Part shown: one piece after another, positions 3,847 to 21,447 of the stretch
Layout: the number at the start of each line of letters is the position of its first letter
Numbering within the stretch: the first letter of the stretch is position 1
Origin: Mollicutes bacterium
Lineage (GTDB): Bacteria > Bacillota_I > Bacilli_A > Izemoplasmatales > Izemoplasmataceae
NCBI GenBank assembly: GCA_003558105.1
Contig: PWMS01000064.1
Span: 1 to 32,411 of the forward strand
Direction: 5' to 3'
Length of the DNA stretch: 32,411 nucleotides
Translations under genes and position numbers: made by a program
The notes under the pieces: generated by a model
Database searches by the model: none
Told to the model about the DNA's origin: nothing
What the model saw: only the letters and a program-made list of their open reading frames with translations

Positions 3847-4878
3847 TCAGTCGCCTATGTTTTCACTTTTTTCTTGGGATTTGTTGATTTTCGCCACAGT
3901 CTTATCTTCTTTTTTCACTTTTTTATTAGCCTTTTTTTCAGCTTTGATTTCTTTTTTGGTTTTCCGACGTTTTTGTTTTGTCTTTTGTACCTTGTTTAAA
4001 AACTCGTCGGTTTCACTCGGCAATGATTCTGTATCGGCCGATTTTTGCATGGCCAATTCTTGTAAGTTAGAGAGGCTTGATTTTAGCCCTTTTGTTTCAT
4101 GAATATTGATCTTCAAGGTTTTAAGGATATCGTCAAAGAATTGATCTTCGCGTTGTTCTTTAACCAAAAGATTGATCGCTTCTTGGGTTGTCTTCGCGCG
4201 TATGTCTTCAAAATAGGTGATGATTTTATCGATATGCTTAATGTATTTTGTCGGCACTTGTGCATTGTTTTCAATGGTTTTTTCGGTATGGTTTAATTCG
4301 CTATTAACCTTGGATAATTCATCTTCCAAATCGTCAATTTCCGCATCGATAATACGGCGATAATCGGCGATTAGATCTTTGGTTTCTTCGTAGGCATCGC
4401 CTAAAGCTTTCCGGTGTTTACGATTGTAACGATAATCACGGCGGTTATATTGCGCTGCGATAAAATAATGGTTAAATCGGATAAAGGTCTTAAAGACAAC
4501 CACCAAGATAATAAGATAGACAGCCGCTAGGACAATTTGAAAAACAACATTATCTAAGATGGTTTGATAAGCAAAGATTTCAAAGAGATCTAAGAGATAG
4601 ATCAGTATAAGCGGCAGGGCTAAAAGGGCACCATATATAAGCATATTACTAAGCCACTGCACAAGATGATGGAAAACATTGCGATGGGCTAATATTTCTT
4701 CTTTTTCTTCAACCAACTGGCCATAAGGAAACGATTTGTGGCGGTCGCTGAGTTTAATCGCGCGCTTTTTTTCGATTTTTTCCTCTAGTTCTTCTTTTTG
4801 CGCACGTAGTTCGTTCGCTTTTTTTATCGATTCGCTAAGATTCGTGATGGCTTTGTATTCACTGTTCTTACTTAACAT
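3847..4878 (-). CDS. Coiled-coil membrane protein with Lys-rich tail, unknown function
   Basis: 343 residues, family not recognised. In order: a charged coiled coil (about residues 17-40), two adjacent membrane segments (about 77-97 and 109-130), a second long helical/coiled region (about 163-205), more helix to about 275, and a strongly basic tail (about 300-330) with KQKRRKTKKEIKAEKKANKK. The low-complexity basic tail could bind nucleic acid, anionic lipid or an acidic protein, but this is inference. The start has AGGAGGG upstream and an extended -10 promoter. It leads a two-gene unit with exoA. Confidence 0.72.
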   Translation of the reverse strand: MLSKNSEYKAITNLSESIKKANELRAQKEELEEKIEKKRAIKLSDRHKSFPYGQLVEEKEEILAHRNVFHHLVQWLSNMLIYGALLALPLILIYLLDLFEIFAYQTILDNVVFQIVLAAVYLIILVVVFKTFIRFNHYFIAAQYNRRDYRYNRKHRKALGDAYEETKDLIADYRRIIDAEIDDLEDELSKVNSELNHTEKTIENNAQVPTKYIKHIDKIITYFEDIRAKTTQEAINLLVKEQREDQFFDDILKTLKINIHETKGLKSSLSNLQELAMQKSADTESLPSETDEFLNKVQKTKQKRRKTKKEIKAEKKANKKVKKEDKTVAKINKSQEKSENIGD

Positions 4879-7715: not shown

Positions 7716-7745
7716 TAAAAAAGCGCAGAATTAATCTGCGCTTTT
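7713..7745 (-). terminator. Terminator of the lipoprotein gene
   Basis: An 11-bp perfect stem (7719-7729 with 7735-7745) with a 5-base loop, followed on the minus strand by a run of T. It starts 3 bases after the lipoprotein stop codon. Confidence 0.92.
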
Positions 7746-7748
7746 GAA

Positions 7749-9740
7749 TTACTCATCTGAGTTATCATTGCCATTTTCATCGTCATTCTCTTCAATCTCG
7801 TCGATATTGGCGATTTGATAGGTGCTTAGATGATAATCGCTATGAACACCATCGCCATCTCGAAGATCATAATCGACATACAGTTCTATGATATAGGTAT
7901 ACCCTTCTTCCGGTTCATGGGTAAAGCTTCCCGCACCCGGATCAACATTCAATGTATCGATTAATTCAATGTTGCCTTCACCATCATCACGGTAAAGATA
8001 AGCGGTTAAGGAACCTTCAGTCGTGGTATTTTGTGGGTCACTAAAACTAATGTTAAAGCTGATGGTACTCTCTTCTAGGCTAACGCTTTGAATAGAACCA
8101 CTAGGGACACTGTTTTGTGTCGTGGTGAAGGTGTCCTCAAAGATAATGCCCGATTGAACCCCCGCCCCATCTTCTAAATCATAATCGGCTTCAATCACTA
8201 AGCGTACCGTTTGATTGGCCAAAAGATTGTGCAGTTCGAAACTTAAAGTGTCTTTAAACATGGTCGTTTGTTTAAGTCGCTTATCCTCTGTATCATAAAT
8301 GGTAATGGTCATGGTATCATCAACTAGAAGATCCGATAATAATGACGCATCAATCTGCCATATAAAGTATGATTCGGTTTGCGTTTGCGTGGTAACATTC
8401 ACCTCGGGCAGTGCCCGCGGTGGGGTAATGAACTCCAAGGTCCCCAACAAACGTTCGCTTTTTGTCCCCTCACCATCATTCAAATCATAATGACCATAAA
8501 CATGGATGGTAAAGGTGTTGTCGCTTAAGATGTCCACAAAGGTTAATTCGTTTATTTCATCTAATGGGGTTTCTAAGGTTTTGTAGATGTCATCATCGTG
8601 CATTAAAACGATCTCAAGATTTTCGTCTAATAAAACACTGTCAATATCGGTAATGTCAAGATCAAAGGTGATTTCATTATAGTGAGGATCATCTGATAAA
8701 ATATCAATGGTAGGCGCGCTTTTAGAATCGGTCGTGGCTGTAAGGGAAACCTCGATAACGCGGTCGCCTTCACCATCGTTTAAATTATACGAGTATATGC
8801 CGATAATTTCATAGGTATTATCGCTTAATAAAGAGGTGAAATTCAAATCTTCAAGCTTTAGCGTTGTATCGACTAAAGTATCGTCTAAATAAAGCTCAAA
8901 ATGATCAAAACTACCCGTTTCATCTGGATCGTGAATGTCATAATCAAAAACGATACTGGTTTTATCGACATCGATAAGGTCTAAAAAGACCTCAGGCGTT
9001 GTTTTTTCTAAGGTCATGATACTTTCGAGTTCAAAGATCATTTCATCGTCGCTAATAAAACTGCCTTCGCCCCGCTCAAAAGAGGCTAAAACACGCAAGG
9101 TATAAGACGTATTTGACAGCAAATCTGAAAATATATGCGACATTTGGCCACTGCTTAAGGGCACTGTCTCTATTTCACTTCCATCATGATAAAGCACCAA
9201 AGTGGCATCTTCTAAAATGGTATCGTTATCGCGCAAGGTTAGATTTAGACTTACATCTTCTTGGTTTGGCGTGATTGAATTGAGTTCAACCGCCGGTTTA
9301 CTCTCAAGGACGTAAACCTCAAATTGGTTGTTTGCTTGAATACTAATTTCACTAACCCCATCTTCAGGGTGAGTATATTCGATGGCCTCAAGGGTATATG
9401 TTCGTTCACCTGGCACCCTTAAAACATCGAAACCAAAGACGATAAGATGATGACTAGAATCTTCTTCAAAACGACTTTGTCGGTAGGTTGTACCATTGAT
9501 GTTAATTGAGTTAATAGGTAGATTCGATGGGTTATTCAAATGAATTTCAATCATTAAAATATCATTTTTTTCAACCATGTAGGTATCAAAGCTGTCGTCG
9601 CCAGCCAAGGGATTTCTTTCATTGACAAGCATTTCATCAAAAGATGGAATCACGACATCATCGATGGGGTCCTCCCCACAAGCCATTAAAATGAAGGCAC
9701 TCGATATTAAAATAAACAATAGAATTAAACGTCTTCGCAT
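7749..9740 (-). CDS. Surface lipoprotein with five Fn3-like tandem modules
   Basis: 663 residues from the ATG at 9740, chosen because the signal sequence starts there (MRRRLILLFILISSAFILMAC) and GGGAG lies 6 bases upstream; an in-frame start at 9791 has no such support. The lipobox LMAC puts the lipidated Cys at residue 21. After a divergent N-terminal domain (about 30-147) come five modules of about 100 residues (about 149-246, 248-341, 342-443, 444-543, 545-643). Each has a LLSxNTY-like turn followed by an acidic loop: FERGEG (221), YNLNDGEG (318), YDLNDGEG (418), YDLEDGAG (520), YDLRDGDG (624). The last 16 residues are almost all Asp, Glu and Asn. The pattern suits extracellular beta sandwiches, perhaps Ca-binding, for adhesion or surface display; that function is inference. 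It has its own promoter and terminator. Confidence 0.85.
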   Translation of the reverse strand: MRRRLILLFILISSAFILMACGEDPIDDVVIPSFDEMLVNERNPLAGDDSFDTYMVEKNDILMIEIHLNNPSNLPINSININGTTYRQSRFEEDSSHHLIVFGFDVLRVPGERTYTLEAIEYTHPEDGVSEISIQANNQFEVYVLESKPAVELNSITPNQEDVSLNLTLRDNDTILEDATLVLYHDGSEIETVPLSSGQMSHIFSDLLSNTSYTLRVLASFERGEGSFISDDEMIFELESIMTLEKTTPEVFLDLIDVDKTSIVFDYDIHDPDETGSFDHFELYLDDTLVDTTLKLEDLNFTSLLSDNTYEIIGIYSYNLNDGEGDRVIEVSLTATTDSKSAPTIDILSDDPHYNEITFDLDITDIDSVLLDENLEIVLMHDDDIYKTLETPLDEINELTFVDILSDNTFTIHVYGHYDLNDGEGTKSERLLGTLEFITPPRALPEVNVTTQTQTESYFIWQIDASLLSDLLVDDTMTITIYDTEDKRLKQTTMFKDTLSFELHNLLANQTVRLVIEADYDLEDGAGVQSGIIFEDTFTTTQNSVPSGSIQSVSLEESTISFNISFSDPQNTTTEGSLTAYLYRDDGEGNIELIDTLNVDPGAGSFTHEPEEGYTYIIELYVDYDLRDGDGVHSDYHLSTYQIANIDEIEENDDENGNDNSDE
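7812..9296 (-). repeat. Five diverged tandem repeats inside the lipoprotein gene
   Basis: Protein-level repeats of 97-104 residues, recognised by the LLSxNTY turn and the (Y/F)-D/N-L-x-D-G-x-G loop. The DNA copies are well diverged, so this is an old duplication rather than a recent expansion. Confidence 0.75.
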
Positions 9741-9772
9741 ACGTTTCTCCCTTTCCTTGATTTCTAGTCTTA

Positions 9773-9801
9773 ATTTTACCATAGTTACCATAAAACAACA
9801 A
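9773..9801 (-). promoter_or_regulatory. Promoter of the lipoprotein gene
   Basis: On the minus strand TTGTTG (9801-9796), 17-base spacer and TGG-TAAAAT (-10 at 9778-9773). It lies just upstream of the start at 9740 and gives a leader of about 27 bases. Confidence 0.55.
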
Positions 9802-19575: not shown

Positions 19576-20301
19576 ATGGGTAAATTGTCGGTAACGTTAA
19601 ATGCAAAAATTGTGATTGGTTATATTATCGCCAATATCATTCTTTTTTTATCGCAAATTATTTTGGTCGTTATTTTTGATGATGCGATCGCTAATTTTGC
19701 GATTTTAGGCTTGATCAACTTGGTTTGGGGCTTATTGTTTGGGGCTTGGTTAGTCTATCAAGCGAAAATTTATCTTTGTATCAATCAATGGTATTATTTT
19801 AAAAGCAACCCCACGCGCAGTATCCTATATATCGTATTAGGGTTTTTAGCTTTGGTGCTGATATCTTTAAGTAGCACAGCTATTCTCATCCATATTTTTG
19901 ACTTTGAGATCGACCCACAAAACCAACAATATATTGTAGAGATTTTAAACAGTGGTGCCGTTGGATTCTTGAGCATGATTATGTATGCGGTTATCTTGGC
20001 GCCAATCATTGAGGAATTGGTCTTTAGAAAAGGCGTATTTGAATTAATAACTAACCGGTTCGGCGTGGTTGCGGCGATTATCGGCAATAGTTTTTTGTTT
20101 GCTTTCATCCATGTGATGTTTGAATTTATCGATCCAGAAACCTCAACACAATATATGAATATTTTACCCTATTTTATTCCAGGTCTCGTTATTTCTATTA
20201 TATATTATCGTTCTGGAAAACTGATTATGATTCCGATTATCATTCATATATTGTATAATGCTATGGGCATATTTGCGATTTTTATCGAAGGTTTATTTTA
20301 A
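19576..20301 (+). CDS. CPBP-family intramembrane metalloprotease
   Basis: 241 residues with about six to seven membrane segments. The Abi/CPBP signature is complete: EELVFRKG (Glu146, Glu147, Arg151), FIHV (His179) and HILYNAMG (His224, Asn228). Related proteins cleave CAAX-like or other membrane substrates, or act in bacteriocin self-immunity; which applies is unknown. The ATG at 19576 is chosen because AGAGGTG (19563-19569) is 6 bases before it; longer in-frame starts run through the promoter. It ends convergently with the ankyrin gene, overlapping it by 9 bases, with no terminator between them. Confidence 0.9.
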   Translation: MGKLSVTLNAKIVIGYIIANIILFLSQIILVVIFDDAIANFAILGLINLVWGLLFGAWLVYQAKIYLCINQWYYFKSNPTRSILYIVLGFLALVLISLSSTAILIHIFDFEIDPQNQQYIVEILNSGAVGFLSMIMYAVILAPIIEELVFRKGVFELITNRFGVVAAIIGNSFLFAFIHVMFEFIDPETSTQYMNILPYFIPGLVISIIYYRSGKLIMIPIIIHILYNAMGIFAIFIEGLF

Positions 20302-21411
20302 AACATGGTTTAATTTTTCGGAACGTTCTAAGATGGTTTGGGTTTCATCATCCAAAGCATCTTTTTTTATGTCGTATACATCGAAAAAAGAGGTGTGTTC
20401 TAACAAGGCTGCATAAAAGACGGCATCACGACCAAATTTATCGATATCTTTGATGTCATGCACACGTTTTAAACATAACCTTAGTAAAAGTTCATCTTTA
20501 TTTAACAGGATATAAAATAATGGTTTATTGCCAAAAAAGTCTTTATCATCGATTTGATAGCCCATGCGTAATAGCGCTTCAGCCTCATCTAATGAGCCTT
20601 TACGTAGAGCTCGATGTAGGGGTTGTTGTTTAAAGGCTTTGGCAATATATGGATGCGTTTCAAACCGTTCAAATATCGTCATGATTTCGCCATAATCTTG
20701 CGCATAATCCTTGGGGTTCAAATTAAAGGTATCCTTAAGATATGTTGGCAGGCCGTATTGAAGATAGCTATCGATCATCAACTCATCGCCGCGTTTAGCC
20801 GCAAGATGGAGAGGACTTTGACGATACATGTTTATAATATAAGGGGTTACTTTCAAATCAAACAGATGTGTTTGCATCGTTTTAAGACCATAACGTGCTA
20901 CTTGATGGTGTAAGTTTTCATGATGCTTGTTAAAGGCGTGGGGCGTGTTACCAAGTTCAAGCGCACGGGTAAATATCTTAATTTTTTTACTGCGAACCGC
21001 ATAAAAGCCTAGGTGTTGGTCTAGATTGTCTTTATGATGGGGCTCAGCGCCAAAATCAAGTAAAAGATCAACGGTTTCTAATGGGCCTTTAGCCGCTGCA
21101 ATCATCAAGGGGGTCCGTCCTTTCAAATCGCTTATATTAACCGCGACGTCAGCTTCAATTAAACTGGTGATGATTTTAGTGTCGCCTAGCGAGGCCGCTA
21201 CATGCAGTGGTGTTTGGCCATGCACATTTTTTTGTTCTTTGTTGCATCCCTTAGATAACAAGAAGTTTACGACTTTTAAAGAACGTTGACGGATTGCATA
21301 AAATAAAGCGTTTTGATGTTGTTCATCCAAAACACTCAAATCCATCGTCTCTAAAACATCAAGGTTACCATTCTTAATTGCTTTTAACATTCGACTCGAC
21401 ATTTCCTTCAC
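20293..21411 (-). CDS. Ankyrin-repeat protein
   Basis: 372 residues, no signal peptide or membrane segment, so probably cytosolic. About nine ankyrin repeats fill it; clear ones include GQTPLHVAASLGD, GRTPLMIAAAKGP, QSPLHLAAKRGD and QPLHRALRKGS. Middle repeats (about 130-190) are degenerate. No enzymatic domain is attached, so it most likely serves as a binding scaffold; the partner is unknown. The GTG at 21411 is chosen for the AAGGG 8 bases before it; other starts within 40 bases are possible. The gene begins only about 40 bases after the hup terminator and has no clear promoter of its own. Confidence 0.87.
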   Translation of the reverse strand: MKEMSSRMLKAIKNGNLDVLETMDLSVLDEQHQNALFYAIRQRSLKVVNFLLSKGCNKEQKNVHGQTPLHVAASLGDTKIITSLIEADVAVNISDLKGRTPLMIAAAKGPLETVDLLLDFGAEPHHKDNLDQHLGFYAVRSKKIKIFTRALELGNTPHAFNKHHENLHHQVARYGLKTMQTHLFDLKVTPYIINMYRQSPLHLAAKRGDELMIDSYLQYGLPTYLKDTFNLNPKDYAQDYGEIMTIFERFETHPYIAKAFKQQPLHRALRKGSLDEAEALLRMGYQIDDKDFFGNKPLFYILLNKDELLLRLCLKRVHDIKDIDKFGRDAVFYAALLEHTSFFDVYDIKKDALDDETQTILERSEKLNHVLK

Positions 21412-21447
21412 AAGCATCACCCTTAATTAAAGCGTACCACAACGCAA

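Follow-up and report, generated by a model that had tools for sequence, protein, structure and literature searches.

The window analysed here, a stretch of 32,411 nucleotides from a member of the Izemoplasmataceae in a soda-lake genus related to Candidatus Izimaplasma, encodes a well-supported Fn3-array lipoprotein. It belongs to a family-wide, unannotated Izemoplasmataceae lipoprotein that combines a lipobox, an Ig-like N-terminal domain and 5 to 26 Fn3 modules. Its fold is not new, its loop is not confined to the lineage, and the evidence gives no support for calcium binding. With a probability of about 0.75, we believe that this protein is a secreted, lipid-anchored surface rod that serves as a structural or adhesive component of a cell without peptidoglycan, a reading that draws on sequence comparisons and predicted structures.

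The five modules at 7812-9296 are encoded on the minus strand, and the plus strand there is stop-rich. The whole open reading frame spans 7749-9791 on the minus strand (680 residues), and its likely ATG start at 9740 is preceded, with a gap of 6 nt, by AAGGAAAGGGAG at 9758-9747. The mature lipoprotein would comprise 643 residues and is strongly acidic (D+E 22%, K+R 4%, pI about 4). The features of the locus are as follows.

7749-9740, minus strand: lipoprotein gene; the frame opens at 9791 and the likely start is ATG 9740 (MRRR...)
9678-9740, minus strand: signal peptide and lipobox LMA-C38 (LMAC, residues 35-38), from sequence
9303-9677, minus strand: N-terminal Ig-like beta domain, residues 39-163 (about 125 residues), predicted from alignments and AlphaFold2 (AF2)
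8997-9296, minus strand: Fn3 module 1, short FG loop FERGEG at 9063-9080, from the HMM; Pfam fn3 match below threshold
8715-8996, minus strand: Fn3 module 2, FG loop YNLNDGEG at 8766-8789, from the HMM and AF2
8409-8714, minus strand: Fn3 module 3, FG loop YDLNDGEG at 8466-8489, from the HMM and AF2
8106-8408, minus strand: Fn3 module 4, FG loop YDLEDGAG at 8160-8183, from the HMM
7812-8105, minus strand: Fn3 module 5, FG loop YDLRDGDG at 7848-7871, from the HMM
7752-7811, minus strand: acidic C-terminal tail with no anchor or cap domain, from sequence
7719-7745, minus strand: terminator-like hairpin with 11 pairs and a trailing T-rich stretch, directly 3' of the stop codon
9846-11030, minus strand: DNA polymerase IV gene, a conserved upstream neighbour by comparison of 21 loci

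An earlier note on this DNA, made from the letters alone, had described five repeats at 7812-9296 together with a lipobox and an acidic tail, and all three are borne out, the interval corresponding exactly to modules 1-5. When scored with a module HMM trained on 178 modules from other genera, with the genus of the window left out, modules 1 to 5 reached 59, 48, 68, 49 and 65 bits, whereas the best domain among 200 shuffled proteins reached 7.1 bits with the same HMM. Similarly, the pattern [DN]LxDGxG occurs four times in the protein, against a mean of 0.003 over 5000 shuffles and a maximum of one per shuffle. The loop sequences had been read correctly for modules 2-5, as had the weaker FERGEG in module 1, and that description lacks the domain of roughly 125 residues that separates module 1 from the lipobox. 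Given that pairwise identity among the five modules is about 23%, and that no tandem repeat was found at the DNA level in the module region, the modules are old.

Structure prediction, which the note had proposed as a check on its inference of Fn3-like beta sandwiches, yielded repeated Fn3 sandwiches. The AF2 model of modules 2-3, built from a 99-row alignment, has a pLDDT of 97.3 and a pTM of 0.85, and the matches listed by Foldseek against the PDB were all Fn3 arrays or Fn3-containing chains (sDscam, PTP-delta, fibronectin, titin, NCAM) with E values near 1e-6. TM-scores over the two-module pair are 0.3-0.5, probably because the inter-module angle differs. A sequence-profile search matched human fibronectin 1fnh (E 2.2e-6), and a single-protein search of PDB sequences returned only a weak Fn3 match, to the netrin receptor DCC (E 0.31). 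The joint model of the N-terminal domain and module 1 (pLDDT 94.6) has Ig-Fn3 pairs as its fold matches. A new fold is ruled out by the AF2 model and the Foldseek matches, and we conclude from the models and profiles that the modules are divergent Fn3 domains.

Two further features of the modules bear on this assignment. The turn described previously as LLSxNTY is the tyrosine corner of Fn3, a motif of the L-x-P-x-T-x-Y type that lies ahead of strand F and is represented among 213 modules by Leu62 (69%) and Tyr68 (86%). It is evident in modules 1-3 of the window (LLSNTSY, LLSDNTY, ILSDNTF) and degenerate in the last two, being weak in module 4 (LLANQTV) and giving way to EEGYTY in module 5, so the claim that every module carries it stands only in part. 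At the core position of strand B, Phe (49%) and Val (19%) predominate over the same 213 modules instead of the canonical Fn3 Trp, a residue that is common but not obligatory in the Pfam fn3 family. Because of the fold and profile matches, we retain the divergent Fn3 assignment despite the missing Trp.

The suggestion that the lineage uses an undescribed module is only partly upheld. Among Pfam and NCBIfam models, none reaches its cut-off with the window protein (Pfam fn3 gives 21.3 bits against 25), modules 2-3 of the window alone have no Pfam match, and searches of PHROGs and plasmids returned nothing for this protein. On the other hand, the fold is a known one, fn3 scores 32-52 bits in homologues and passes the cut-off in some full ones, fn3 is the most frequent Pfam family match among two-module segments (23 of 99), and the loop is found in many families of the class. 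No earlier description of this lipoprotein was found in the literature searched.

Matches were found in 49 of the 150 genomes searched, the window genome included, and 35 of the 49 lie in its family. Each of the 21 homologues that were read has a lipobox-type Cys after an N-terminal hydrophobic stretch, followed by the N-terminal domain and between 4 and 26 modules, or 5-26 in those with a complete C-terminus, for a total of 213-214 modules. Early modules correspond positionally across species. Of the 213 modules, only 12 find their best match inside their own protein. The largest homologue, of 2816 residues and 26 Fn3 modules, is encoded in G027 (L043 5769-14216), probably the genome of the cultured strain Xianfuyuplasma coldseepsis zrk13. 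Its modules 9-13, 15-19 and partly 21-25 are mutually similar, which suggests from sequence that the extra copies arose by block duplication of about six modules. We also considered a distal tip module conserved across the family and rejected this possibility, since the last module has a mean conservation of 0.281 compared with 0.257-0.367 for the others, despite one 70% pair within the genus of the window.

The profile also has matches outside the family, in 68 of 395 genomes across the class (family included), with recurrent YDLNDGxG loops. One example from another family of the class is a lipoprotein of 4693 residues in which 19 modules were detected, with YDLNDGxG loops (G205, L088 2596-16674). 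A module-bearing protein outside the Izemoplasmataceae additionally has CBM_4_9 and Bact_surface_Ig-like domains, and there the Pfam fn3 cut-off is passed. Because Fn3 arrays in many further families of the class carry it too, the loop is not specific to this lineage.

In 20 of 21 loci the upstream neighbour is DNA polymerase IV, no more than 150 nt away in 19 of them, and the remaining locus is at a contig edge; the polymerase gene usually sits in a recN-polIV block with dxs before it, and the neighbours of the lipoprotein gene are housekeeping genes. The gene is cleanly absent from one congener (G005, L104 2677-2757), where about 80 nt separate polIV from the aldehyde dehydrogenase gene that comes next, and it is missing in all three genomes examined of another genus (g5); the slot beside polIV in these genomes is either empty or occupied by another small gene. 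These absences indicate that the gene is not essential, and thus that it is conserved yet dispensable. Elsewhere in the window, the minus strand encodes what is, as judged by eye, a 375-residue ankyrin-repeat-like protein (20293-21420), flanked by CPBP-like membrane protease and HU-like genes, and a 343-residue membrane protein with a coiled coil and lysine-rich ends (3847-4878), which is found near the same locus in several relatives.

The signal peptide, the lipobox Cys and the presence of Lgt, which was found in 47 of the 49 genomes, are those of a bacterial lipoprotein. The peptidoglycan transpeptidase PF00905 was found in none of these 49 genomes, with a positive control search, and the cultured relative zrk13 is reported to have no distinct cell wall (PMC8397711). 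We propose that Sec export and processing by Lgt and Lsp would anchor Cys38 on the outside of the single membrane, with the Ig-like domain at the membrane. Each domain of this kind is about 3-4 nm long. Five tandem Fn3 domains would accordingly place the acidic tip some 15-20 nm out, a rod of up to 26 modules in relatives might reach about 90 nm, and module gain and loss could tune its length. The most likely role that we infer for it is that of an adhesive or coat component on the surface of a cell without a wall, and the carbohydrate-binding domain in the other-family protein fits an extracellular location.

The earlier note had further proposed an unusual, perhaps Ca2+-binding, loop. In the AF2 model of modules 2-3, DLNDGEG bridges strands F (65-75) and G (82-92), the final two of each module, and the DLxDGxG loop is thus, by this model, the ordinary FG turn of Fn3. 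Its residues could act as an Asp/Asn turn cap, with Gly in left-handed positions and the leading Tyr packed on the sandwich. Across 213 modules this loop is well conserved (Tyr76 81%, Asp77 64% with Asn 24%, Leu78 72%, Asn79 43%, Asp80 80%, Gly81 66%, Gly83 69%), as is the BC loop (Asp23 91%, Asp25 65%). In established Fn3 topology, the BC and FG loops share one pole, which adjoins the preceding module. Conserved aspartates in both loops at such a junction, together with the appearance of SiiE among the fold matches of the N-terminal domain and module 1, would be expected of an adhesin in which Ca2+ bound where modules meet rigidifies the rod, as in SiiE or cadherins. We nevertheless consider such calcium stiffening unlikely. 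Positions within the FG loop are mutually coupled (phi 0.13-0.28), whereas the BC-loop aspartates show no positive coupling with those of the FG loop (phi -0.16 to 0.10), a weak test that ignores relatedness among modules; by this measure, the co-conserved junction Asp cluster that characterizes Ca2+-binding Ig adhesins was not found. Neither EF-hand, DxDxDG nor dockerin spacing was found in the loop. Moreover, Asp80 and Asp77 are as frequent in soda-lake species (82% and 65%) as in the cold-seep genus of zrk13 (76% and 67%), even though soda lakes are poor in Ca and Mg (PMC6146748). The lack of BC-FG coupling and the equal conservation in low-calcium soda lakes speak for a structural hairpin turn rather than a calcium site. 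Salt adaptation is likewise not favoured as the origin of the loop, because the loop also occurs in a non-soda genus and in other families.

A different possibility is that the array captures substrates, binding a polymer from the environment, for instance DNA or a polysaccharide, and keeping it near transporters or nucleases. Cultured Izemoplasma do break down extracellular DNA (PMC8397711), and CBM_4_9 accompanies the modules in the other-family protein noted above. However, the strong acidity of the homologues checked (pI near 4, D+E 16-27%, K+R 3-8%) disfavours DNA as a ligand. Furthermore, no Pfam domain besides fn3 scores above its threshold in either the window protein or four full homologues, and the adjacent genes serve housekeeping functions. 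We therefore regard this role as quite improbable. Still more doubtful is the proposal that the main length-variable surface coat of wall-less Izemoplasmataceae, in place of the lost wall, is made by a separate and so far unnamed Fn3 subfamily whose FG turn is stabilised by metal.

With a lipid-anchored surface rod as the preferred reading, a fold and a name can now be given to an unannotated surface lipoprotein found throughout the family, its 26-module version has been located in a cultured strain, and there is no need to invoke an undescribed module with a calcium loop. Annotation throughout the class would benefit from a dedicated HMM for the DLxDGxG Fn3 subfamily.

Three known systems provide useful comparisons. 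The bacterial Fn3-like modules of CbhA from C. thermocellum (3pdd) form a secreted Fn3-like pair that is among the fold matches of modules 2-3, but modules of that type are linkers in glycoside hydrolases, whereas no enzyme domain was found here. The giant Ca2+-binding Ig adhesins of the SiiE type resemble this protein in their long tandem Ig-fold rod, and there is a weak fold match to the model of the N-terminal domain and module 1; the protein described here differs in its lipid anchor and wall-less cell, and a shared Ca2+ site is unsupported. The closest counterpart is the Fn3 domain itself (Pfam PF00041). Despite the mostly Phe or Val residue in place of the strand-B Trp, the fixed DLxDGxG turn and the sub-threshold Pfam score of the window protein, the modules share with it the seven-stranded order, the tyrosine corner before strand F and an FG loop with a terminal Gly, and it provides their best fold and profile matches in the PDB.
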